Positions 46,191 through 61,681 of a stretch of 61,681 nucleotides of DNA are shown here, piece by piece; position 1 is the first letter of the stretch, and each line of letters opens with the position of its first letter. Location: contig CALHQW010000014.1 in NCBI GenBank assembly GCA_938040315.1, positions 1-61,681 of the forward strand, written 5' to 3'. The notes below the pieces were generated by a model. It was not told the origin of the DNA, did no database searches, and saw only the letters and a program-made list of their open reading frames with translations. The translations under genes were made by a program, and so were the position numbers. The stretch comes from an uncultured bacterium. GTDB lineage: Bacteria > Hydrothermota > Tepidihabitantia > Tepidihabitantales > DTDR01.

Positions 46191-47224
46191 TTCAAAATAA
46201 TTAATTTCTTAAATTGGTTTCTCTCCTTTAAAAAATACATTCTCCCTTTCTTAACATTATAAGATATTCTTTGACCTAATGGATTATAAAGAATATTTCT
46301 ATTTTCTATTTTCTTTTTATTATAAAGTATCTTCTTAGCAATTGGTAAAATATTTGAACTAATTGGATTACTTAAAGAGGCGATAGTGGCAATTGTTGCT
46401 TTTGTTATCTCATATACTAAATTTAAATCATTAAAACCACCACCAATCGTATCACCATTTGTATGATAATAGGGATTATTAATATTTAAATTCTCTCTTA
46501 TATGAATAGCAATATAACCAAAGCGATTAAAAGAGGCATGGTCGGAGCGTGGTCGGTCAATAATTGCTCTGATACATCGCAAATTGGTATAGGTATCAGC
46601 ACAACTAATAAAATAATCAACTAATGGTTGACAATTTGGATTATTGGGCTTGCCAATAATTGAAGCCGAATCCCTTCCTTCTATTGAATAACCAATCATA
46701 TCAATATTAATTGCTGAGATAATACTATCTTCGTAAACATATTTTGCTAAACTACAATAATAATAACTTCCGAGAAGTCCCTCTTCTTCACCGGAAAAGA
46801 AGATAAACCTAATTGTCTTTTCAAAGTTATAATTACTCAAAATTCTTATCACTTCTAAAAGTGCTGAAGTACCGCTACCGTTATCATCGGCACCCGGAGC
46901 AAAGAGAAAGGGATTAGAAGAAATAGCATCATAATGGGCACAGAGAACAACATAAATACTTTCTAATTGATTTGCTCCCCTTTTTATACCAATCACATTT
47001 GGTGAATAATTAGGAAGAAAAGTTTGAAAATATACTGAGTCAAGGCGATATGCTAATAATTTATTATATAAAAAATTAGCGCAAGCAAAAGCACTTTCGC
47101 TTAGAGAATAACGGGTTTGGAAATTTTGCAACCTTAAAACATTATAAAAAATTGACTCCTGCGAACAAGAATTTACCATCTCCCAAATTAACGGATTAAA
47201 ATTAAAAAGAAAGAAAAAGATCAC
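46187..47224 (-). CDS. M28-family metallopeptidase, likely exported
   Basis: The 345-residue protein has a short hydrophobic start (MIFFFLFNFNPLIW). Its M28 domain shows all metal-ligand motifs: LCAHYDA, PGADDNGSGTSAL, FFSGEEEGLLGS, INIDMIGY and a late His in NPYYHTNGD. It is probably a zinc aminopeptidase acting outside the cytoplasm. The C-terminal 60 residues (ILYNPLGQRISYNVKKGRMY) look like a shortened or decayed T9SS tail. It is embedded by 4-nt overlaps between phospholipid genes and the beta-repeat gene. Confidence 0.85.
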   Translation of the reverse strand: MIFFFLFNFNPLIWEMVNSCSQESIFYNVLRLQNFQTRYSLSESAFACANFLYNKLLAYRLDSVYFQTFLPNYSPNVIGIKRGANQLESIYVVLCAHYDAISSNPFLFAPGADDNGSGTSALLEVIRILSNYNFEKTIRFIFFSGEEEGLLGSYYYCSLAKYVYEDSIISAINIDMIGYSIEGRDSASIIGKPNNPNCQPLVDYFISCADTYTNLRCIRAIIDRPRSDHASFNRFGYIAIHIRENLNINNPYYHTNGDTIGGGFNDLNLVYEITKATIATIASLSNPISSNILPIAKKILYNKKKIENRNILYNPLGQRISYNVKKGRMYFLKERNQFKKLIILK

Positions 47225-47493
47225 CTTTCAAAAATTATATTGCCTTTATTATCATAAAGGGTAATAATACCACCTTTTTCTTGGGCACCAATTTCGGCAA
47301 TTGGTCTTCCTTCCTTGTTAAAAATCATTAATCCACCACCCTCTTTACCCGCCCACATACTCATAACAACCTTTCCTTCGTTATTATATATTAAAAACAC
47401 ACCTCCTTTTTCGGTTTGCTTAATTTCTAATAATACCTTGCCCTCTTCATTAATAAACTGTAAACCTTCCTTATTAATATTAATTTGCTTCAT
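47221..47493 (-). CDS. Small beta-repeat protein, unknown function
   Basis: I do not recognise a named family. The 90 residues are built from three to four repeats of about 23 residues with the pattern NxEGKxxxxIxxxExGGxxxIY, alternating Gly turns and beta strands, as in a small beta-solenoid or sheet stack. It has no signal peptide. Its ATG overlaps the stop of the acidic gene by 1 nt (TAATG) and its own end overlaps the peptidase gene. Confidence 0.7.
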   Translation of the reverse strand: MKQININKEGLQFINEEGKVLLEIKQTEKGGVFLIYNNEGKVVMSMWAGKEGGGLMIFNKEGRPIAEIGAQEKGGIITLYDNKGNIIFER

Positions 47494-47816
47494 TAATCCT
47501 CATCAAAATCTTCCTCTTCTTCCTCATCGTCAAAATCCTCGTCTTCTTCCTCATCATCAAACTCTTCCTCTTCTTCCTCATCATAATCTTCATCCTCTTC
47601 TTCATCATCAAAATCTTCCTCTTCTTCATCGTCGTCAAAATCCTCGTTCTCTTCATCTTCGTCAAAGTCTTCGTCTTCGTATTCTTCCTCTTCGTATTCT
47701 TCTTCTTCGTCGTCTTCGTATTCCTCTTCTAACAAGAAGATTTCTGGAAGGAAGAATTTCTTTTCTTCTTTTTCTTCTAAAATATCACTTAATAAAAATA
47801 ATTTGTTTTTATCCAT
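47493..47816 (-). CDS. Highly acidic Asp/Glu-repeat protein
   Basis: The 107-residue protein starts MDKNKLFLLSDILEEKEEKK; from about residue 30 it is nearly pure Asp, Glu, Tyr and Phe, in repeats like EEEDFDDEEEDEDYDE. The DNA is a degenerate repeat of TCATC/TTCTTCC units. AAAGGAGG precedes the ATG, which supports real expression. Such tracts may bind divalent cations or basic proteins, but no function can be assigned. It heads the operon down to the slipin gene. Confidence 0.65.
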   Translation of the reverse strand: MDKNKLFLLSDILEEKEEKKFFLPEIFLLEEEYEDDEEEEYEEEEYEDEDFDEDEENEDFDDDEEEEDFDDEEEDEDYDEEEEEEFDDEEEDEDFDDEEEEEDFDED

Positions 47817-49282: not shown

Positions 49283-49630
49283 ATGAAGTTAATTTTAATA
49301 AAAAATCAGAGTAAAGGATTATTTGGTGGTGTGAAATTTGAAGTGCAAGCCCAAGGGGAGTTATCTGATGAAGAAAGAAAACTTATACATCCTTATAAAC
49401 TCGAAAATGAGATACTCTTTCAAAAGAAATTGGTAAATCTTTGGGAACAACCTACTGATTATGCGCTTGATGTGAAGGTAAAGGATTTTCTTTCTTGGCA
49501 GACTTACAAGTGTAAAGATCTGGCCGAGGTTATTAGTTTTGCTGAGCGTCTGATTGAGGCAGGAAAGATGCTAAAAACTTATTTAGCGGTTGCTAAATCT
49601 TTTGGTGGACAAGAAATCTATGAATTCTAA
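49283..49630 (+). CDS. Unknown 115-aa protein at the head of the kinase island
   Basis: No family recognised. The product (MKLILIKNQSKGLFGGVKFE ... KTYLAVAKSFGGQEIYEF) looks like a compact alpha/beta protein: beta strands in the first 50 residues, a Trp/Cys-containing middle (FLSWQTYKCKDLAE), and a C-terminal helix. There is no signal peptide or membrane helix. A full AGGAGG site precedes the ATG. It lies 67 nt upstream of the kinase gene, so it may be an accessory subunit or substrate. Confidence 0.7.
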   Translation: MKLILIKNQSKGLFGGVKFEVQAQGELSDEERKLIHPYKLENEILFQKKLVNLWEQPTDYALDVKVKDFLSWQTYKCKDLAEVISFAERLIEAGKMLKTYLAVAKSFGGQEIYEF

Positions 49631-49697: not shown

Positions 49698-52376
49698 ATG
49701 GAGGATAATTCTAAAAAGACCAAGCGGGCAGAGGAAGATGTCATCTCGTCTGGAGTTACGCCTACGGATAAGACCCAGAAAGATGAGGGATCCGTAATAA
49801 AATCGGGTGTTACTCCCACGCCGACAGCCCAGATAATTTCTGCTGGAATTGTAGGCGCTGTTGGAAGCGAAATAGTTCTTAATGGCAAAACTTATCGAAT
49901 ATCAAGATTTATTGCCAGTTCTGGTGAAGCCGAAGTCTATTTGTTAGAAAGAGAAAATCAGAAGTATATTTTCAAGTATTATTATTCCCGATTTAAACCT
50001 AACGAGAAAATTTTGGAGAAACTAAAAGGATTAACTCATGAGAATATAATAGCGCTTATTGATTATGGTTATTATTATGGTCGGTTCTTTGAGATTCTTG
50101 AATATGCAGAAGGTGGCTCAATTATTGATACTAATCCTGATGGTACCTATCGGTATATTCCAATAAAGGATATGAATAAATTAAAGCGGATAATAAAAGA
50201 GGTTGTAAATGCACTCCAGTTCTGCCATTCTAAGGGAATAATTCACCGGGATATAAAGCCTGGAAATATCTTTTTTGCTAATCCTGATGGCACGGGTGTG
50301 AAGATTGGTGATTTTGGTATTTCCTCATTGTTTGATGAAGGGTTATCAAAGCATATCACAACAGACCAGGCGAGGACAGAAATATATGCTGCACCTGAGT
50401 TGTATCAGACTATCGGTGGCAAAATATTAATATCAAAAGGAGTAGACTATTATGCCTTAGGAATAACGCTAATTCATATCTTCTCTGGTGAGGAACCTTT
50501 TAAGGATTTGAATGCCTTAGCGATAATGAGGGTAAAATGTGATGGAATGGTCTATATTCCTGAGGATATGCCTGAAGATTTAAAGAATTTAATAAAGGGT
50601 CTTATCACTGTGGAGTCTTCTAAACGTTGGGGCTATGAAGAAGTTCAAAAATGGCTGAAGGGTGAATATGTTCCAGTTTATTATAAGACCGTGGAGTTTA
50701 AGTATGAACCTTTTCCTTTTGGTGTGATTAAAGGAAAAGAGGTAATAGCGAGGGATCCAGCAGAATTGGCAGATTTATTATTAAAATATCCAGAGATTGG
50801 AAAATTTCATATATATAAAGGTAGGGTTGAAAGGTGGTTGGAAAATGCGAAGAACCCAGTATTTACTCTCATTGAGACTATTCGGGAAAAAGAATATCCT
50901 AAGGATGAAGAGGCGGGTTTAATTAAGACTGTCTATCTTCTAAATCCATTAAAAGGTTATATTACCTTTGCCGGAATTGAATGTAAAACTGCGGAAGAAA
51001 TTGGCGATGCAATTGAGCGGGAATTTTCATATTATATGCTCTATCTTACCCAGAAGAAAAATGCTGACCTTTTTCTTTACTTGGAGGCTCATGATGCAAA
51101 AGATGTAGCCGATGCATTTAGGAAATATGCCCAAGCCTATAGTCCTGACCGGGCATTTAATATGATGGTATTAGAATTACAGGGCAAGGATAAATTTAAG
51201 ATGGGAAATATGATATTCCGTAAACCAGAAGATTTACTTCTGGCTGATGATAAGACAAAAGATAAACTAGCGAAAGAGTTGAGTAATCCTAATTCAAAGT
51301 TATCAATCTGGCTTGAACAGTTTGCCGAATTAAAGAATAGTATTGATAAATGGCGGAAAATTGGTAGATACGATGGAATTACTTTAAGGTATGCATTGGA
51401 TAAAGATAGTGCATTCCCTATAAATGGAAGCAAAGCACGAGATGTCAAAGAATTTGAAGCCCTCCTTTCTCAAAATATATTAACTATTTCAAAAAATTTA
51501 GCACCGGAGACCGATTTTGTCAAAGAAGCAGATTTTTGGCTAAAGAATTACCAAAATAGCGACTTTGAAACCTGTTGGATAAATATAATTGATAATATTA
51601 CTGCTTCTGGTCCTATTTCTGATGAAGCACGAAAAGTTTATGAATGGTTATGCGAAAAATGGGCTGAGTATGCCCGTAAAAGAGTAGATAGAAAATTAAG
51701 AAAGAAATTTATTGAGTTATTAAAAAAGATTAATTCCGATCATAAGTTAATTGGGCTTTACATAAAAGAAGAGGAAATTATAAAAAAATTAGTTGAAGCA
51801 GAATGGGCAAAAATAGATAAAATTCAAAAAGATAAATTGGAAAAAATAGAAAGGGATAGAAAGAATTACTTAAATAGGTTAAGGGCTTTAGAGAAAGAAA
51901 AGCGAAAGAAAGATTTTTTGGAAAAAAGGGATGAGGCTTTTGGTGTAGGCATCCTTATGGCTGTGGCATGGATACTGTTTTTTACTCTGAAAGGTAGTCA
52001 AGTCCTAATCTGGATTTGTGTGATAATAGGGGGTATAGTAGGTCTTGCTTCTGGAAGAGTAGGAGGTGCTATTGTAGGTGTTATTGTAGGCGCTCTCGTA
52101 GGCAAATTCCTACCATTTGTACTTATTATACTTACACCAATATTTATAATCCTCCTTATCCGTGCGCTGATATCTTATAATAAAATAAACCAGAAGGTAT
52201 TTAAGATTCGCCTCTCACCTAATGAAAAACAGAAATATGATAATAAGAAAATCGCAGTGCAAAAGGAGATGGATGATAAAAAAAAGAAGGCGGAACTGCA
52301 AATTGTAAGTGAAGTTTATAAAATGGATGAAACCAAAATTGATAATGAATTAAAATCGCTTACTACCAAAAGGTGA
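49698..52376 (+). CDS. Membrane-associated Ser/Thr protein kinase
   Basis: The 892-residue protein has a Hanks-type kinase domain at about residues 65-330. Visible are a degenerate Gly loop ([11 protein letters not shown]), Lys93 in [14 protein letters not shown] (Asp185, Asn190), DFG (205-207) and APE (232-234), so it should be active. The N-terminal 50 residues carry a repeated SGVTPT motif, a possible phospho-site. Residues about 340-680 are unrecognised; a coiled-coil follows (about 690-750), then two or three Gly-rich hydrophobic helices (about 755-820) and a charged tail. AGGAGG precedes the ATG. A triple-AAA+ gene follows after 5 nt. Confidence 0.9.
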
Positions 52377-52381
52377 TAACT

Positions 52382-54898
52382 ATGCCAACACTCTGTGTAA
52401 AATGTGGTGCATCAAATCGTGACATTGCTAAATATTGTAAGTTTTGCGGTGCAAAAATTGCTCAGCCCTCATTTCAATTAGAAGATTTAGTTGGTCTTGA
52501 AGATATAAAAGAGCAGATTCAAAACATTATCAACATCGCTAAAGGAATGGAAAAGAGAAAAAAGGCAGGGCACCCGGTTCCAAAACAAAATCTTCATACA
52601 ATTATTATTGGTAATACTGGAACAGGAAAAAGTAGAATTGGAGAAATATTATGCAGAGTTTTTTATAAATATGGGATTACAACCAAAGAGGATGCCCTTA
52701 TTGTTGATGCTGTTGACTGGCCAAAATTTGCCAAAGATTTTGAGCAGAATTTTCAGAAGGCAAAAGGCGGTATCCTCTTTATTGATAATGTGCAGAAATT
52801 GGTGCCTGCCGGCTATTCAAACGAAATAAATCCTCTGGATAAATTATTCAGTGAAATGGATAAATCAAATTACGACCCAATTATTATTCTTTCTGGATTA
52901 CCAAAGGGATTAAAAGAATATCTTGAAGAAAATCCAAGTATCAAAGGCAGATTCAAATACATTTTTGAGATACCCGATTTCAATGCCGAGCAGTTATTTC
53001 AAATTGCTGAAAAGGAATTAAAGAAGCAAGGTTTTACTCTTAATGAAGAGGCAGAAAAAAGATTAAAGAAATTATTTAAACATCTTGTAAAAACCAAGGA
53101 CGAAACATTCAGTAATGCCCGGGAGGCAATAAAACAGGTTGAAGATATTATAAATAATTATTATCTCCGTATCTCAATAGGTGCCCCTGATAACTGTATT
53201 ATCGTTCCTGAAGATATCAAAGGTGAATTTCCTGAAGAAAAGAAAGAGGAAGAGATTTTTGAGGAACTTAATAAACTTGTTGGAATGGAAAATGTAAAAA
53301 CCGAAGTGAGAAATCTTATAAACACAATAAAGGTCCAGAAAGAAAGGGCAGAATTACTCGGTGAAACTTATAAACTGGGGATTCATATTGTTATGACCGG
53401 AAATCCGGGAACTGGTAAGACTACTATCGCGAGAAAACTTGGTGAAATATTCCATGCAATCGGATTACTTGATAGAGGTCATGTAGTGGAAGTTGACCGA
53501 AGTAAGATGGTTGCCCAGTATGTTGGTCACACTGCACCACAAGTAAATAAACTTTGTGATAGTGCAATGGGTGGGATTTTATTCATTGATGAGGCATACA
53601 CCCTTGCGCCAGAAAATGTTGTTGATTCCTTCGGCAAAGAGGCGATTGATACCTTATTAAAGAGAATGGAAGATGATCGGGGTAAATTTATTGTGATAGT
53701 TGCCGGTTATCCAAAAGAGATGGAAAATTTCTTGAATTCTAACCCCGGTTTACGCTCACGTTTTACTACTTACTTCCACTTTGAAGATTATAAGCCCGAT
53801 GAATTACTTGAAATTTTCAAAATTATGGCTAAATCAAACAAATACGAAATTGAAGATAAGGCAGAAGAGAAATTGAAAAGAATATTTACTCTAATGTATG
53901 AGAGAAGAGACAAAACCTTTGCGAACGGTAGAACCGTAAGAACCCTTTTTGAGGAGTGTCTTACGATGCATGCTAATCGGATATTAACAATTACTGATTA
54001 TGAAATAAAGAAAAAAGAAATGTTAATAATTAGAGTTGAAGACATACCTCCTAAATATGAAGTGGAAAAAGAAATCAGAATTGAGGATGTTATAAAGAAA
54101 TTAGAGAGTCTTATCGGACTTGAGGCAGTGAAAAAAGAGATCAAAAGTTTGATAAATTACCTACAGGTTGAAAAGGCAAGGGCTTCAATAGGTGTAAAAG
54201 AGACGATGTTAAACCTCCATTTTGTTTTTCGTGGCAATCCTGGTACTGGTAAGACCACTGTTGCCCGAATCCTTGCCGAAGTTTTTAAAGCGCTTGGACT
54301 TCTATCAAAAGGGCATCTTGTTGAGGTGGATAGGGCTGGGCTTGTTGCCGAATATGTTGGTCAAACTGCACCCAAGACCCACAAAGTCATTGATAGTGCA
54401 ATGGGCGGTGTTTTATTTATTGACGAAGCATATACCCTCGCACCAAGGGGAGCCGGAGCAGATTATGGCAAAGAGGCAATAGACACTTTATTAAAGAGAA
54501 TGGAAGATGACCGAGGTAAGTTTGTTGTGATTGTGGCAGGATATCCAGAACTAATGGATGAGTTCATCAATGCTAATCCAGGTCTTAAATCAAGATTTAC
54601 AAAATATATTGATTTTGAGGACTACAAACCAAAAGAGTTAAAAGCAATATTTGAGTTAATGGTAAAGAATAAAGGAATGAAACTGGGTGAAGGTGTAGAA
54701 GAATTTCTGGAAAAACTATTTACCAACATTTATAACAAAAGGGATAAAAATTTCGCTAATGGTAGAACAGTAAGAAACATCTTTGAGATGGTTTTACAGA
54801 ATCAATCAAGCAGGGTTGCCGAACTAATGCAGAAAGGTAAAGTGAGTGAAGAGGATTTAAGAACAATCGTTATTGAAGATTTTGGTAAAATAGAGTAA
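52382..54898 (+). CDS. Zinc-ribbon protein with three AAA+ modules (CbxX/EccA-like)
   Basis: The 838-residue protein starts with a zinc ribbon ([10 protein letters not shown] ... YCKFCGAK, residues 5-23), then three AAA+ modules. Walker A motifs are GNTGTGKS (77-84), GNPGTGKT (340-347) and GNPGTGKT (618-625). Modules 2 and 3 have Walker [11 protein letters not shown] and closely related sequence, as in CbxX/CfqX, rubisco activase CbbX and EccA ATPases. Module 1 has FIDNVQKL, with Asn replacing the catalytic Glu, and is probably impaired. I chose ATG 52382 with AAGGTGAT upstream; a GTG three codons earlier is less likely. It may remodel a protein complex under kinase control. Confidence 0.9.
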
Positions 54899-54958: not shown

Positions 54959-55354
54959 ATGGATTTAAATGAAATTTTAATTCAAGCAGCAAAAGATGGA
55001 AATATGTTGGTATTAAAGGCTGCTTTAGAGAAAGGTGCGGATATTAATGCCCAAGATGAACATGGTTGAACTGCACTTATGTGGGCGTCAAAGAATGGAC
55101 ATACAGAAATTGTAAAATTCCTTAAAGAAAAAGGAGCACAGGAATTTCCAATACCTAAAATATCAGAAGAGACACCTCTGTTTCCTGTTGAAATTGGTGG
55201 GGAGTGGGGTTATATTGATAAGGCGGGCAAAGTTGTGATTGCTCCCCAGTTTGACGATGCTTTGGATTTCAGTGAAGGTCTTGCTTCTGTTAGAATTGGT
55301 TGGAAGTGGTGTTATATTGATAAAACTGGTAAGATTGTTTTCAAAGAGGAATAA
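54959..55354 (+). CDS. Ankyrin/WG-repeat protein interrupted by an in-frame TGA
   Basis: AAGGAGG precedes ATG 54959. Codons 1-36 encode an ankyrin start (ILIQAAKDGNMLVLKAALEK, GADINAQDEHG). Codon 37 (55067-55069) is TGA, then the frame continues with TALMWASKNGHTEIVKFLKE. Ankyrin repeats usually have Trp here (GWTALMWA), so TGG to TGA is a single-base change. After it come two WG repeats (WGYIDKAGKVVIAPQFDDA and WCYIDKTGKIV). The gene is either a recent nonsense mutant, read through, restarted at ATG 55079, or a sequence error. Both repeat types are protein-binding modules, so it probably serves as an adaptor in the island. Confidence 0.75.
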
Positions 55355-55359
55355 TAATT

Positions 55360-55899
55360 ATGTATTGTGCCTTTTGTAAAGCAGAGATAGAGGACGATTC
55401 ATTCTATTGTGATCAGTGTGGACGGGAAATTTTAATCTGTCCTAAATGTAATAAACCGGGCAAAGGTAAAATTTGCACGCAGGATGGAACTACCTTGATA
55501 ACAGCAAAAAGCCGTTCTTCCACTATTCAGGTTGATGAGGTTAATGTGCAATTCTCACCTACATCCGCTAATGAATTACATCTCATAAACAGAAATCTTA
55601 ACCTGGATATTAAAATCACAAAAGATGTTTTAATCGGTAGAGCAGAAGGTGATTTTGTTGAGATATTTAGAAAATATGACGCAGTTTCACGCAGACACCT
55701 GAAAATTAGTTTTGACCCCCAAAAAGGTTGGCTTGCAACCGATTTGGGCTCAACTAATGGCACAAAATATAATAATACTCTATTAACTCCAAATCAACCC
55801 CAAGTTCTTGCTGACAAATCATTCTTACAGATTGCAAATATAGAATTCTATGTAGAAATTAGAAGACCAAAAGAAGAAGATAAAACCAAGAAGTTATAA
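55360..55899 (+). CDS. Zinc-ribbon/FHA-domain phosphothreonine reader
   Basis: The 179-residue protein has an N-terminal double zinc ribbon (YCAFCKAEI, YCDQCGREI, CPKCNKPGKGKIC) and a C-terminal FHA domain at about 75-170. The FHA has the phosphate-binding set: GR (about 93-94), SRRH (about 108-111) and STNGT (about 129-133). FHA domains bind phosphothreonine peptides, so this is the expected reader for the nearby kinase. It ends exactly where the PP2C gene begins, giving tight coupling. Confidence 0.9.
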   Translation: MYCAFCKAEIEDDSFYCDQCGREILICPKCNKPGKGKICTQDGTTLITAKSRSSTIQVDEVNVQFSPTSANELHLINRNLNLDIKITKDVLIGRAEGDFVEIFRKYDAVSRRHLKISFDPQKGWLATDLGSTNGTKYNNTLLTPNQPQVLADKSFLQIANIEFYVEIRRPKEEDKTKKL

Positions 55900-56682
55900 A
55901 TGAAATTAAAAATTTTAGCAATAAGTGACAAGGGTTGTGTTAGAGAGCATAACGAAGACATGGTGCTAATTGGCGATAATATATTTCGGGACGACCGGAA
56001 AGAATTAATCGTTGATTTGAAAGATAAACCTATTTTCTTTGTTGCAATTGCCGATGGTATGGGTGGTCATAATGCCGGTGAAATAGCAAGTGAATTGGTT
56101 TTGACAGAAATGGCGAAAAGAATTAGAACAATAGAAGAAGGTTTGTCAGAAAAAGAACTTGCTGATAAATTTTCTATCTGGGCAAAAGAGATTCATTCAT
56201 TTATCTTAGAAGAAGGAAATAAAGATGATAATAAAAAAGGGATGGGTTCTACTTTGGTCGGAATTTTATTTTACGAAGGAAGGGTGTATTATATAAATGT
56301 CGGTGATAGTCGGCTATATAGATTGAGAAGGGGCAATCTTATACAAATTTCAAAAGACCACTCTCTTCAAGCGGTAATAAGAAGCGAAGAAGTTCCATCA
56401 AATATCATTTTGAATTCCTTTGGCGGTGGTAAGGGAATTTTTATTGATTTTTACCCTGCTGGTGGTGTAGTGTTGAATGACGATATATTACTCCTCTGTA
56501 GCGACGGATTATCAGATATGTTAACTGATGATGAAATTGAAAGTATCTTAAATAATGAAAAAGAGAATGTAATAGATAAACTCCTTGAGGAAGCAAAGAA
56601 AAAGGGTGGCGAAGATAATATTTCTATTGTTTTAATACATATAACTATGGAAAATAATTCAATAGAAATGGAAACATCATAA
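55900..56682 (+). CDS. PP2C-family Ser/Thr protein phosphatase
   Basis: The 260-residue protein opens LKILAISDKGCVREHNEDM. It has IADGMGGHNAGEIAS, KKGMGSTLVGILF, YYINVGDSRLYRLR, LLLCSDGLSDMLTDDEI and GGEDNISIVLI, the complete PP2C metal-binding and catalytic set. It has no membrane helix. It would reverse phosphorylation by the kinase encoded earlier in the same operon. The ATG directly follows the FHA stop codon. Confidence 0.94.
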   Translation: MKLKILAISDKGCVREHNEDMVLIGDNIFRDDRKELIVDLKDKPIFFVAIADGMGGHNAGEIASELVLTEMAKRIRTIEEGLSEKELADKFSIWAKEIHSFILEEGNKDDNKKGMGSTLVGILFYEGRVYYINVGDSRLYRLRRGNLIQISKDHSLQAVIRSEEVPSNIILNSFGGGKGIFIDFYPAGGVVLNDDILLLCSDGLSDMLTDDEIESILNNEKENVIDKLLEEAKKKGGEDNISIVLIHITMENNSIEMETS

Positions 56683-56708: not shown

Positions 56709-57560
56709 ATGAAATATCATGAAAAAGGTAAAGAAAAGGAAAAAGAAAAAAGAAAAATACTTCCATCTGAAGAGGAAAAAGAAGGTAAGGAGTGTCCAAA
56801 TTGCCATTTTATCAACGAAACCGAGGCAAAATTTTGTGCTGAATGTGGCTATGATCTTTCAACCGGTGAAAAATGTCCCAAGTGCGGTGCAAAAATTGTC
56901 TCACCATATGCGGATATATGCGAGGTATGCGGTGAATGGCTATTAGAAGGAAAATGTAAGTTCTGTTACGCTGACCTTGAAGAAGGAGCAACTTATTGCG
57001 CAGAATGCGGTAATCCTGTGGCTGGCATAATTTGTCCACAATGTGGAAGATTAAGTTATTTTGATTTTTGTAAATTTTGTAATACCCCACTTACTCATAT
57101 TGCCTATAAAATGATAGAAAGAGTGAAAGCCAATCCAGAAGAAAAGATTGAGAAATTTACTACCAATCAAGAGGCAAGGGCATATTTTATGGCACAAAAG
57201 TTTGTGATGATGGGTGTAGAGGTTAAAGAGAAAAAAGAAGAAGATAAGGCAGAGGAACTACTTAAAATGAAAGAATACATTGAAAAAGTGAAGAAAAAAC
57301 AGAAAAAAAAGACATATACCCCATTATTTAGTGAGAAGCAAATACAGGATATATTATCCAGTGGTAAAGAGGCAGAGAAGGAAATACAAAGGCAAGAGGA
57401 AGAAAGACGAAGAAAAGAAGAAGAAAGGAGAAGAAGGCAAGAGGAAGAAAGGAGAAGAAGACTTAGAGGATGGGTCTGTTATTGCTGCCATGTTCTGCAT
57501 TCTAGTCCCGCGGACTGTGGTTGTCCTTATGCCGGTGGGTATTGGGTAGATTGGATTTAA
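56709..57560 (+). CDS. Multi-zinc-ribbon coiled-coil protein
   Basis: The 283-residue protein has four to five CxxC-type zinc ribbons between residues about 25 and 130 (CPNCHFINETEAKFCAECG, CPKCGAKIV, CKFCYADLEEGATYCAECG, CPQCG). A helical region follows, then a highly charged Arg/Glu coiled-coil (about 225-260) and a Cys-rich C-terminus (WVCYCCHVLHSS, DCGCPYAGGYW). It resembles double zinc ribbon scaffolds. As the last island gene, and sharing ribbons with the AAA+ and FHA proteins, it may be a scaffold or substrate. Confidence 0.8.
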   Translation: MKYHEKGKEKEKEKRKILPSEEEKEGKECPNCHFINETEAKFCAECGYDLSTGEKCPKCGAKIVSPYADICEVCGEWLLEGKCKFCYADLEEGATYCAECGNPVAGIICPQCGRLSYFDFCKFCNTPLTHIAYKMIERVKANPEEKIEKFTTNQEARAYFMAQKFVMMGVEVKEKKEEDKAEELLKMKEYIEKVKKKQKKKTYTPLFSEKQIQDILSSGKEAEKEIQRQEEERRRKEEERRRRQEEERRRRLRGWVCYCCHVLHSSPADCGCPYAGGYWVDWI

Positions 57561-57808: not shown

Positions 57809-59113
57809 ATGTTTCGGAAGCCATCCAAAAAAGAGTGGATTTACCTAACGAGTATTATAATTCTTTATAGTATTGCCTTAATTTATGTTATTACTAATAA
57901 TCTTTCTATAACTTCTCTTTATAAATATGGTCTTTTACAACCGAAAGGGATAATTGGCGAAGAAGCGAGGTTAAAGGAAATAGAGACACCCCTTTCTTGG
58001 AATATTCCTAAAGTTCTTTGGTTTATTATTATAAAAGGAGCAGGTGTGCTTGTTGAGTTATTCCAATATTGGGTAATTGGAATGCTCATTGCTGCTTTCC
58101 TTGTTGTTTTTGTTCCGTGGGATAAGGTGAAGAAGAAAATGGGCTATGGTGGATTAGGAAGTATTTTTTTAGCAAGTATTGCTGGTGCTATTATTCCAAT
58201 ATGCTCTTGTGGAATAGTTCCAGTTCTTGCTGGCATGGTTCAGGCAGGCATACCAATTGGCCCTACAATGGCATTTCTCATTGCTGCACCTATGCTTAAT
58301 ATTCCGGCTGTGTTTATGACCGCTGGAATTTTAGGTTGGAAATTAGCAATTGGTAGAATCCTTGGTACCTTTTTTATTGCCCTAAGTGTTGGAAGTGTTT
58401 GTTCCTACTGGCAAAGAAAAGAAAGATTTTTAAGAAGATTTATAAAATTGTCAATTATTCCTAATCTCTCACCCGAACTTCAACAATTTGCTTTTAAGGT
58501 AGCCATGGCCCTCTCTAAAGAACCTTATAAACTACCAACTGAAAAACTTGCTTTTGGAGAGGAGGAGAAACTCTATCTTTTAGGTGAGGCTGGCATTCTT
58601 GACCGAGATAAAAATGGATTATGGTTTCTGCCTCAAACATCATCAGTAGCGGTAGATGTAAAAAGTGCTTGTTTTGTACTTCCTACTGGTGAGAAATTAA
58701 ATTGGCGAGAAAGATTTATTAAACTATTTCAGACTGCCTGGGATTTTTTCCTTCAACTTAATTATTATCTTCTTTTAGCAGTTATTATTGCTGGCGCCAT
58801 TAAAGTAATTATACCCACTAATATGGTTATAAACCTTGTGGGAGGAAAGAGTTTAAATTCGGTATTAGTGAGTGCCTTTATTGCGGTTTTAGCATATGTT
58901 TGTACTTACGTCGAAGTGCCAACTGCTTTAGCATTGATTCATAAAGGTATGGGTGGTGGAGCAACTTTAGCATACTTATTAGGTGGTCCTGGTCTTTCCC
59001 TTCCTTCTATTGCAATGCTTTCCGGAGTTTTTAAGCCAAAATTATTAATCCTTTATGTTGGTTTGAGTTTTATAGGTTGTGTAATTGCTGGCTATGTATT
59101 TAATATGTTTTAA
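57809..59113 (+). CDS. CSCG-type permease (DUF318/ArsP/SO_0444 family)
   Basis: The 434-residue protein has about 10 membrane helices in two halves separated by a soluble segment (about 210-310). The first half has IIPICSCGIVPVLAGMVQAG and GPTMAFLIAAPMLNIPAVF. The second has CTYVEVPTALALIHKGMGGG and GGPGLSLPSIAML. These match the permease family that includes the organoarsenical exporter ArsP and SO_0444-type Cu/Zn transporters. The substrate is uncertain; Cys-rich neighbours favour a metal or metalloid. Confidence 0.87.
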   Translation: MFRKPSKKEWIYLTSIIILYSIALIYVITNNLSITSLYKYGLLQPKGIIGEEARLKEIETPLSWNIPKVLWFIIIKGAGVLVELFQYWVIGMLIAAFLVVFVPWDKVKKKMGYGGLGSIFLASIAGAIIPICSCGIVPVLAGMVQAGIPIGPTMAFLIAAPMLNIPAVFMTAGILGWKLAIGRILGTFFIALSVGSVCSYWQRKERFLRRFIKLSIIPNLSPELQQFAFKVAMALSKEPYKLPTEKLAFGEEEKLYLLGEAGILDRDKNGLWFLPQTSSVAVDVKSACFVLPTGEKLNWRERFIKLFQTAWDFFLQLNYYLLLAVIIAGAIKVIIPTNMVINLVGGKSLNSVLVSAFIAVLAYVCTYVEVPTALALIHKGMGGGATLAYLLGGPGLSLPSIAMLSGVFKPKLLILYVGLSFIGCVIAGYVFNMF

Positions 59114-59827: not shown

Positions 59828-61681
59828 ATGTCAGAACATAATTCTCTTATTAATTTAGCAGATTCTCTTGTTTCCCAAACAAAAAATATACTTTCCTCTG
59901 CAAAAACTGAAGAAGATTTAAGAATTGGATTTGAAAAAATCTTAGAACCGATATTAAAAGAATTAGATATTAAATCAACTCCTCGCTATGAAAAGTCTAT
60001 ATATAAATCAGGTCGTAGTGATGCTCTTCATGGTCAAGTGATAATTGAATATAAATCACGGGGTTCCTTTAAATCTAAAAAGACTATTAATAACACTTTC
60101 CGACGATTAGTTGAGTATATAAAAGGACTTTGCGAAGAACAAAAGGATACGCTTTTTGTGTTGGAGGTGAAGTATATAGGTGTTGGTTTTGATGGCGAAC
60201 AAATATTTTTTGTTCAATATAAAGGTGATAAAACTAAACTAAAAGCAAAATTAGAGGATAAAGATTTTAAAATAATTGGTCCTTATGAGTTTAATGAAGA
60301 AAGTGCTCGGACTCTTCTAATTCATTTACGGGCTTTATCTCGTTTACCTTTAAATGCGGAAAATTTAGTTAATAAATTTGGACCTAAAAGTGAACTTACA
60401 CTTCAAATGGTTTCTGCACTTAGTAGGGCTTTAAAATATTGGGGCAATCAGACCCGTATCCAAACATTTTTCAATGAATGGAAAAGACTCTTTGGTATTG
60501 TTTATGGCGAAAAATTTAGTGGTGGTTGTGAAAGTAAAGAGATAGAAGCCTTTTCTCAACTTTACAAGATAAGTAAAGAAATAAATTTTCAAGAACTTTT
60601 ATTTTCTATTCATACTTATTTTGCCTTTTTAATGAAACTTATTGCTGCTGAAATTTTAACTTTAAGAGAGACATCTTTTAGTTCCTCTCTTGCTTCTCAA
60701 TTTACCCATATTTCTGATGATGAACTTAAAACGCAACTTGAAGATATAGAAAATGGTGGAATTTATGCTCGTAAGGGGATTACCAATTTTTTAGAAGGTG
60801 ATTTCTTTCGTTGGTATCTTGATGCTTTTGATTCACCGGAATTAAAAGAGGCAATAAGGGAAGTTTGTCGGGCTCTTTCTGAATTTGAACCAGCAACGAG
60901 CATATTAAATCCTGATTTAACTCGTGACCTTCTTAAAAAACTTTATCAATATTTAGTTCCGAAAGAAATCCGCCATTCTCTTGGCGAATATTATACTCCT
61001 GATTGGTTAGCCGAATTATTACTAAATGAGGTTGGTTATAATGGGGATACATTGAAAAGGTTTTTAGATCCTGCTTGTGGCTCAGGCACTTTTCTTGTTT
61101 TGGCTATTCAAAGAGCAATAAAACATGGTAGAGAAAAAGAAAGACTACCAGATTTAGAAATTGGTAAAAGGATTATTAATAACATTTGGGGGTTTGATTT
61201 AAATCCTTTGGCAGTGATTGCTGCCCGCACAAACTATCTCTTTGCTTTGGGCGATTTAGTAAATCAACTAGTAAAACAACTTCCGAGAATAGAAATTCCG
61301 ATTTATCTTTGTGATTCGGTTTTAACTCCAACAAGAATCACAAAAAATCTTTACAGCGAATTTTTAGAAGTTTCAACTTCTGTTGGTAAATTTCAGATTC
61401 CTGCTGAATGGGTGAGAAGTGGCGGATTTTTGCTACCTACAGCGGTATCAATTATTGAAGAGATGGTAAAAAATAAATATTCAGTTGACCAAGCGATGGA
61501 AAGATTTAAAGAAGAGGGATTAGTTTTTCCAACTAATGAGCAAGTGGTGAAAGATTTGTACAATCAAATCTTAGAATTGGAAAATCAAAACAAAAACGGA
61601 ATTTGGGCAAGATTTTTGAAAAATGCTTTTGCGCCAATGATGGCTGGAAAATTTGATTTTGTCGTTGGTAATCCACCATGG
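59828..61681 (+). CDS. Type IIG-like restriction endonuclease/N6-adenine methyltransferase (3' partial)
   Basis: An open frame runs from ATG 59828 (directly after an in-frame TAG) to the window end, 618 codons without a stop. N-terminal residues about 55-80 hold a PD-(D/E)XK-like nuclease core (GRSDALHGQVIIEYKS). A helical region follows (about 150-380), then an N6-adenine methylase domain with LGEYYTPDWLAELLL, motif I FLDPACGSGTFLVLA (about 413) and motif IV VVGNPPW as the last residues seen. Fused nuclease and methylase suggest Type IIG; BREX PglX-like is an alternative. The target-recognition domain lies outside. An AAAGGAG is 14 nt upstream, and a 13-codon ORF (59786-59827) ends right at the start. 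Confidence 0.87.
   Translation, partial: MSEHNSLINLADSLVSQTKNILSSAKTEEDLRIGFEKILEPILKELDIKSTPRYEKSIYKSGRSDALHGQVIIEYKSRGSFKSKKTINNTFRRLVEYIKGLCEEQKDTLFVLEVKYIGVGFDGEQIFFVQYKGDKTKLKAKLEDKDFKIIGPYEFNEESARTLLIHLRALSRLPLNAENLVNKFGPKSELTLQMVSALSRALKYWGNQTRIQTFFNEWKRLFGIVYGEKFSGGCESKEIEAFSQLYKISKEINFQELLFSIHTYFAFLMKLIAAEILTLRETSFSSSLASQFTHISDDELKTQLEDIENGGIYARKGITNFLEGDFFRWYLDAFDSPELKEAIREVCRALSEFEPATSILNPDLTRDLLKKLYQYLVPKEIRHSLGEYYTPDWLAELLLNEVGYNGDTLKRFLDPACGSGTFLVLAIQRAIKHGREKERLPDLEIGKRIINNIWGFDLNPLAVIAARTNYLFALGDLVNQLVKQLPRIEIPIYLCDSVLTPTRITKNLYSEFLEVSTSVGKFQIPAEWVRSGGFLLPTAVSIIEEMVKNKYSVDQAMERFKEEGLVFPTNEQVVKDLYNQILELENQNKNGIWARFLKNAFAPMMAGKFDFVVGNPPW

Follow-up and report, generated by a model that had tools for sequence, protein, structure and literature searches.

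The SpoVK/CbbX/EccA clade of AAA+ ATPases is marked by the tyrosine of a sensor-1 GY motif, an Asn upstream of the Arg finger and a sensor-2 Arg, and its characterised members are dedicated chaperones, for Rubisco (CbbX), in type VII secretion (EccA) and for MurG (SpoVK), as set out in PMC10659427. The legend to Fig. 3A of that paper gives clade architectures that include zinc-binding ones, among which there might be a member of the family described here. In the characterised clade proteins, each chain has a single module with the usual Glu in Walker B. In the window (the whole 61,681-nt stretch of DNA analysed here), the uninterrupted forward-strand ORF 52382-54898, which has an ATG start, a TAA stop and an in-frame GTG upstream at 52373, encodes instead an 838-aa chain with three AAA and three AAA_lid_6 stretches and one Zn_Ribbon_1 in Pfam. 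Thus, the three AAA+ modules that the initial annotation had placed behind a zinc ribbon in one chain are indeed there (Table 1). The gene is of single copy in its 1.49-Mb genome, and the four Cys of the zinc ribbon are invariant across 12 homologues. Modules 2 and 3 (M2 and M3) are close copies, as also annotated, with ~54% identity and with both quoted strings, [10 protein letters not shown] and [19 protein letters not shown], in common; module 1 (M1) is ~29% identical to each of them. The canonical modules resemble the clade in AAA_lid_6 and in their motifs, M2 and M3 carrying AGY (sensor 1), NPGL.SRF and ANGR (sensor 2). The closest solved structure is CbbX (3syk/3zuh/3syl), and CbbX single modules rank first in a Foldseek search with the chain model (TM-score 0.71-0.77, by target length). 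The family differs from SpoVK, CbbX and EccA in having 3-6 modules, a first module with Asn in Walker B and no pore loop, a zinc ribbon, and an operon with a kinase, an FHA protein and a PP2C phosphatase.

Table 1 Features of the AAA+ chain and its operon in the window (motif positions were assigned from the alignment, not from a structure)
Feature	Position	Strand	Remark
Ser/Thr protein kinase, hydrophobic C-terminal segments	49698..52376	+	Pfam Pkinase 9e-37
Kinase N-terminal tail, divergent Thr repeats (KKTKR.., DKTQK..)	49698..49853	+	replaces DKT[VIL][RK] repeats of several orthologues
Zinc ribbon of the AAA chain, CxxC...CxxC	52394..52447, residues 5-22	+	Pfam Zn_Ribbon_1
M1, predicted non-hydrolysing, pore-loop-less AAA+	52466..53236, residues 29-285	+	weak AAA/AAA_lid_6 matches
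M1 Walker A GNTGTGKS, intact	52610..52633	+	
Site of the absent pore-loop-1 segment in M1 (YVG in M2/M3)	52718..52723	+	
M1 Walker B FIDN with Asp135; Asn136 in place of the catalytic Glu	52778..52789	+	
M2, canonical, A-type, Walker B FIDE	53237..54061, residues 286-560	+	
M3, canonical, B-type, Walker B FIDE	54062..54895, residues 561-838	+	
Ankyrin/WG-repeat gene, in-frame TGA at 55067-55069	54959..55354	+	G035 has TGG (Trp) there
Zinc-ribbon and FHA protein	55360..55899	+	Pfam FHA 5.6e-12, DZR
FHA protein C-terminal DKTKKL	55879..55896	+	replaces orthologues' -(D/E)KTxR(hydrophobic)-COOH
PP2C-type Ser/Thr phosphatase	55900..56682	+	Pfam PP2C 6.6e-14
Double-zinc-ribbon protein	56709..57560	+	Pfam DZR 1.9e-14

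The modules were compared one by one with the profiles of the three named families, a check that the initial annotation had suggested. M1, M2 and M3 score 132.8, 272.6 and 289.4 bits with SpoVK (TIGR02881, cut-off 422.95 bits), 83, 237 and 247 bits with CbbX (TIGR02880, cut-off 459.25 bits), and 84, 235 and 250 bits with EccA (TIGR03922, cut-off 466.65 bits), so that no module passes any cut-off. The best stretches with the EccA profile cover its AAA part only (~273-547 of 557), and the chain begins with a zinc ribbon where EccA has its TPR/beta-helix region. As judged from these scores and the motifs, the modules are members of the clade that lie outside its three named families. The whole chain exceeds all three NCBIfam equivalog cut-offs (672 bits for SpoVK), because the scores of its three modules are summed; such sums are an annotation trap, as they pass three mutually exclusive cut-offs together. 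The whole-chain passes would be expected of an ordinary SpoVK, CbbX or EccA orthologue whose modules were fused by chance, but the best single module reaches 289 bits against a cut-off of 423, and the window ORFs read included no recognisable Rubisco, ESX or sporulation gene; we find this origin very improbable.

The rule of one AAA+ module per clade chain, from which the initial annotation had started, does not hold, since two- and three-module clade chains exist elsewhere. Two-module chains are found on plasmids of Virgibacillus, Calothrix and Streptomyces. Among 198 sampled Bacteroidota genomes, 27 have modules of the CbbX type, ~18 of them with a ~1,300-aa chain of three canonical modules. 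Tandem clade chains as such are not unusual. They share tandem canonical modules with the window family, whereas the inspected ones lack M1 and the zinc ribbon; two ~1,300-aa chains (L049 and L050) have long N-termini, TPR-like by sequence, and no kinase, FHA or PP2C neighbours. The proviso that triple-module forms might be a common and already described family thus holds in its first half, for tandem CbbX-type chains, and not in its second: the open-access literature yielded no description of the M1-bearing family, whether of its inactive M1, of its varying number of modules or of its operon, and the family is apparently undescribed. The ~1,300-aa Bacteroidota chain is widespread and of nearly constant length. 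A separate Bacteroidales type (L018-L024, ~960-1,260 aa where complete) has a canonical module 2 between degenerate modules 1 and 3, the latter with GNTGTGKS present and FIDE absent. In an unannotated human gut scaffold from a phage collection, labelled 'Bacteriophage sp.' (MT836273; L005, 2002-4785), a 927-aa chain shows ~30% identity to the window protein. It contains Cys pairs, one degenerate module in which Walker B reads SDN, and two additional modules, and is possibly a very distant family member. A scan of viral contigs yielded nothing.

It is evident from both profile and multiple alignment that M1 is diverged and has lost the catalytic Glu, as first noted from its FIDN motif. Realignment recovered no Glu, and Asn136 stays at the catalytic position. 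Two features go beyond the earlier reading: M1 is also without pore loop 1 (YVG) and without the sensor-1 Tyr. The multiple alignment shows a five-residue gap at pore loop 1 in all 12 aligned M1 sequences, and the loop is likewise absent, by inspection, from two M1 sequences found later; at sensor 1, Leu replaces Tyr (SGL versus the AGY of the clade). The window M1 retains the Asn upstream of the Arg finger and the sensor-2 Arg, and AlphaFold predicts it to adopt an AAA fold (block pLDDT mostly 80-90). Of the 14 collected chains, 12 have Asn at the catalytic position of M1, G201 has Asp (ND) and L014 has Glu, so that Glu is absent from 13; 11 have an intact Walker A, and most retain the Arg finger. 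FIDN is not a sequencing error, since it is kept in independent genomes at 85, 53 and ~49% identity and pN is far below pS. These sequences suggest that M1 is probably unable to hydrolyse ATP, and the intact Walker A that it may still bind it, which supports the ATP-binding, non-hydrolysing module proposed earlier. Binding may not extend to the whole family, as Walker A deviates in three M1 sequences: L014 has GKTGTAKS, although its FIDE is retained, and G201 and G452 end in GKN. Counterparts of such a module are described in PMC7311170, where RNF213 AAA2, devoid of the Walker B and sensor-I residues, keeps a bound ATP that glues modules together, and where AAA2 of both RNF213 and dynein is ATP-bound and inactive.

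The divergence of M1 and the loss of its catalytic and pore-loop residues would also fit a decaying copy without function. However, M1 modules form one clade of their own in the module tree (support 100/100), with one copy per chain, always N-terminal and in every chain. The Asn is shared by 12 of the 14 chains, the adjacent NVQKL is largely conserved across the family, and the comparison with the M1 of G035 gives a pS of 0.55, a pN of 0.068 and hence a pN/pS of ~0.12. By these sequence comparisons M1 is under purifying selection, and we think decay scarcely credible.

The family was assembled as a collection of at least 14 distinct chains rather than as a census, and homologues with a known title come mostly from metagenome bins. 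The family is represented in candidate division WOR-3, in Ignavibacteria and in other Bacteroidota. When named genome contigs were scanned with an alignment of three sequences, full-length relatives appeared in Bacteroidetes, Ignavibacteriales, Melioribacteraceae and one candidate division WOR-3 bacterium, and a search with an alignment of the zinc ribbon and M1 found the family in 8 of 391 genomes in the class of G149 and in 3 of 395 in that of G147. All 14 collected chains have the zinc ribbon and a single N-terminal M1 without pore loop, followed by canonical modules that keep Walker A, the Walker B Glu, the Arg finger and sensor 2, and the total number of modules per chain is 3, 4, 5 or 6. 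The canonical modules fall into two supported clades, A (with M2 of the window; 16 rows, support 100/99) and B (with M3; 18 rows, support 99/97). Their order is M1-A-B in the window, G035, L014, G201 and G452, M1-A-B-B in L015 and G382, M1-A-B-A-B in G223 and G314, M1-A-B-B-B in G249, and M1-A-B-A-A-B in L016, whose six modules and 1,677 aa make it the longest chain found. Two chains outside the module tree (G709 and G765) have M1 and three canonical modules, and in G765 a separate one-module gene adjoins the multi-module gene; the WOR-3 contig L012 stops within the third module of its chain. With a single constant M1 and varying numbers of A and B, expansion seems to be confined to the canonical part. 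These module counts hinge on assembly, and collapse of repeats is unlikely since canonical modules within the compared chains are 38-69% identical at the protein level.

The initial annotation took the triple to suggest a pseudo-hexamer of two chains or an asymmetric ring. Relatives with 3, 4, 5 and 6 modules mean that two chains adding up to six modules is no rule of the family, which weakens the two-chain hexamer, and a putative asymmetric assembly with one non-hydrolysing module stays the best reading. One way to build it would be to stack six chains in tiers, one per module position, as p97/Cdc48 and other type II AAA+ proteins do, with M1 as a non-hydrolysing assembly tier. Stacked rings permit any of the four module numbers, and NSF offers a precedent, its D2 tier binding ATP and hardly hydrolysing it; we know, however, of no six-tier AAA+ stack. 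Type II AAA+ proteins (p97/Cdc48, Rix7, Drg1 and NSF) also have tandem AAA modules in one chain, but they have two, placed in different tiers, and the Foldseek alignment over two modules is poor: among the 50 best matches, the p97, Rix7 and Cdc48 type II chains reach a TM-score (by target length) of at most 0.48 with the predicted triple at an rmsd of ~10 A, in a model whose packing is uncertain. We regard stacking as possible without favouring it. Alternatively, a single-layer mixed ring in the manner of dynein, Rea1 and RNF213 would hold one six-module chain or two three-module chains. It is worth noting that the longest chain has exactly six modules (L016), that three-module chains divide six and that the A/B order hints at defined neighbours. 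Chains of four (G148, G382 and G709) and five modules (G223, G314 and G249) would nevertheless need extra partners to reach six, and AlphaFold gives no confident side-by-side packing of modules (pTM 0.51 for the chain and 0.52 for the M2-M3 pair), so single-layer rings are a tentative solution.

Module numbers from three to six are neutral for stacked tiers, and a ring made of one chain gains appeal from the six-module example. Dynein, Rea1/midasin and RNF213 likewise have several AAA modules per chain, of which specific ones are inactive and bind ATP; they differ from the window family in being eukaryotic, of other AAA clades and fixed at six modules, with huge extra domains, whereas the family is bacterial and has three to six. 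That one chain forms an asymmetric ring or a large arc of one, with up to all six of its modules, a built-in inactive and pore-loop-less module at a constant place and phospho-control, is rather doubtful; if true, it would be a bacterial counterpart of dynein and RNF213 that evolved within the CbbX/SpoVK clade. Questions of ring size, subunit order and inactive subunits in AAA+ machines are usually approached by artificial linking of subunits. The natural linked chains of 3, 4, 5 and 6 modules, all opening with the same inactive module, are a ready-made series in which these questions can be probed.

The AAA gene starts 5 bp after the end of the kinase gene, and the window operon continues with a broken ankyrin/WG gene, the FHA protein, PP2C and a double zinc ribbon, with small gaps or none. 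The same order (kinase-AAA-ankyrin-FHA-PP2C-zinc ribbon) is found in G035. The TGA within the ankyrin/WG gene seems to mark a nonsense mutation, the splitting of the gene or a mistake in assembly, since TGA is a common stop in the window. Zinc-ribbon orthologues adjoin the kinase in nine other genomes, and the order zinc ribbon-kinase-AAA-FHA-PP2C is found in L014, L015, L043, L044, L045, L046, L047, L053 and L054, with one more small gene inserted at some of these loci. The order kinase-AAA-FHA-PP2C is thus common to these nine, the window and G035. L048 has a partial kinase-AAA-FHA operon, and L016, whose contig begins at the AAA gene, has AAA-FHA-PP2C; in L012, whose contig ends inside the AAA gene, a zinc-ribbon/NHL-type protein lies upstream of that gene and not a kinase. 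The window kinase and most orthologues keep HRD, DFG and APE, and all kinases except the G201 ORF have hydrophobic C-terminal windows like transmembrane segments. The FHA protein has the FHA consensus residues, and the phosphatase scores 1.1e-50 with the Stp1 profile, under the cut-off of that profile.

A motif of the type [D/E]-K-T-[V/I/L]-[R/K] occurs 3-6 times in 7 of the 11 kinase tails, compared with ~0.1 expected from shuffling, although this motif was picked after inspecting the data. Its strict form is absent from the kinases of L014, G201, G709 and the window, the last having only divergent versions. A related T-x-R/K-hydrophobic C-terminus is found in 10 of the 13 FHA proteins, which end in DKTKKL in the window, DKTVRI in G314, EKTVRL in G382 and DKTIRL in L016. 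A correlation of tail repeats with module number (Spearman 0.86 among 11 kinases) was set aside, since the genomes are related, the motif is post hoc and G765 was scored as five by including its separate one-module gene. The DKT[VIL][RK] motifs suggest candidate targets of the kinase that would double as docking sites for the FHA domain. A small FHA protein with a Thr motif outside its FHA domain is a Ser/Thr kinase target in GarA/OdhI, according to PMC12321487. Here the likeness lies in the FHA consensus residues and the Thr motif, and there are differences: the GarA/OdhI motif is an N-terminal ETTS, that of the window family a C-terminal DKTxR, and the partners are others.

From these motifs and the operon we infer an ATP-driven arm of a phospho-signalling system, a model that as a whole we rate about evenly between right and wrong. 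The membrane Ser/Thr kinase would phosphorylate the Thr of D/E-K-T-x-R/K motifs, both those of its tail and those that end the FHA protein, with PP2C opposing it, and the FHA domain would read the phospho-Thr marks and so lead to assembly of the complex. The AAA chain, held in place by its zinc ribbon, would act close to the membrane and remodel or activate a dedicated client, much as MurG is served by SpoVK and Rubisco by CbbX. By analogy, the canonical A- and B-type modules, M2 and M3 in the window, should hydrolyse ATP and thread or pull the substrate. M1, with neither catalytic Glu nor pore loop, would bind ATP as a static element, without hydrolysing it or touching the substrate, and would serve as a fixed anchor or a regulator at the N-terminus of the row of modules. 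Conservation of the three partners (kinase, phosphatase and FHA protein), together with their common candidate phospho-motif, makes this a testable model of phospho-control for a remodelling machine.

The operon is an accessory segment that has probably been moved horizontally. The chain of G035, which is of the same class and another family, is 84-85% identical to that of the window, more than the housekeeping protein Rho (just 72% between the two genomes). The AAA chain is absent from two genomes of the same genus (Rho 97%). These congeners match the window up to ~47.2 kb, and one of them (G001) again from ~59.9 kb on another contig; between these matches there are only short repeat-like ones, up to ~49.0 kb, and none over the operon. 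This patchy distribution, the absence from both congeners, a window stretch with few congener matches, a nearby type IIG restriction enzyme and weak partial PADLOC matches of the kinase and the AAA chain could point to an anti-phage defence or conflict system. Yet no known defence family was matched at full length in the defence libraries, the genes around the operon in other genomes are, by sequence, mostly ordinary metabolic ones, and the operon contains no recognisable nuclease or toxin effector; a defence role is therefore unlikely. A vWA/MoxR ternary conflict system was also considered and dropped, since none of the operon genes was recognised as vWA.

The type IIG restriction-modification enzyme (59828-61681, PADLOC 1e-161) runs off the end of the window, and an ArsP-like permease (57809-59113) lies upstream of it. 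Directly upstream of the kinase is a 115-aa ORF (49283-49630) that matches nothing in Pfam or PHROG. Further upstream (47221-47816), a 107-aa extremely acidic, low-complexity ORF with Glu/Asp runs adjoins a 90-aa glycine-rich, repeat-like protein, the region of which matches several places in a congener genome. The G035 contig starts within a kinase C-terminus and ends, downstream of its zinc-ribbon gene (L011, 7331-7523), in the apparent N-terminus of a second kinase of the same family; such ends would fit either a tandem copy of the operon or a circular element of small size.
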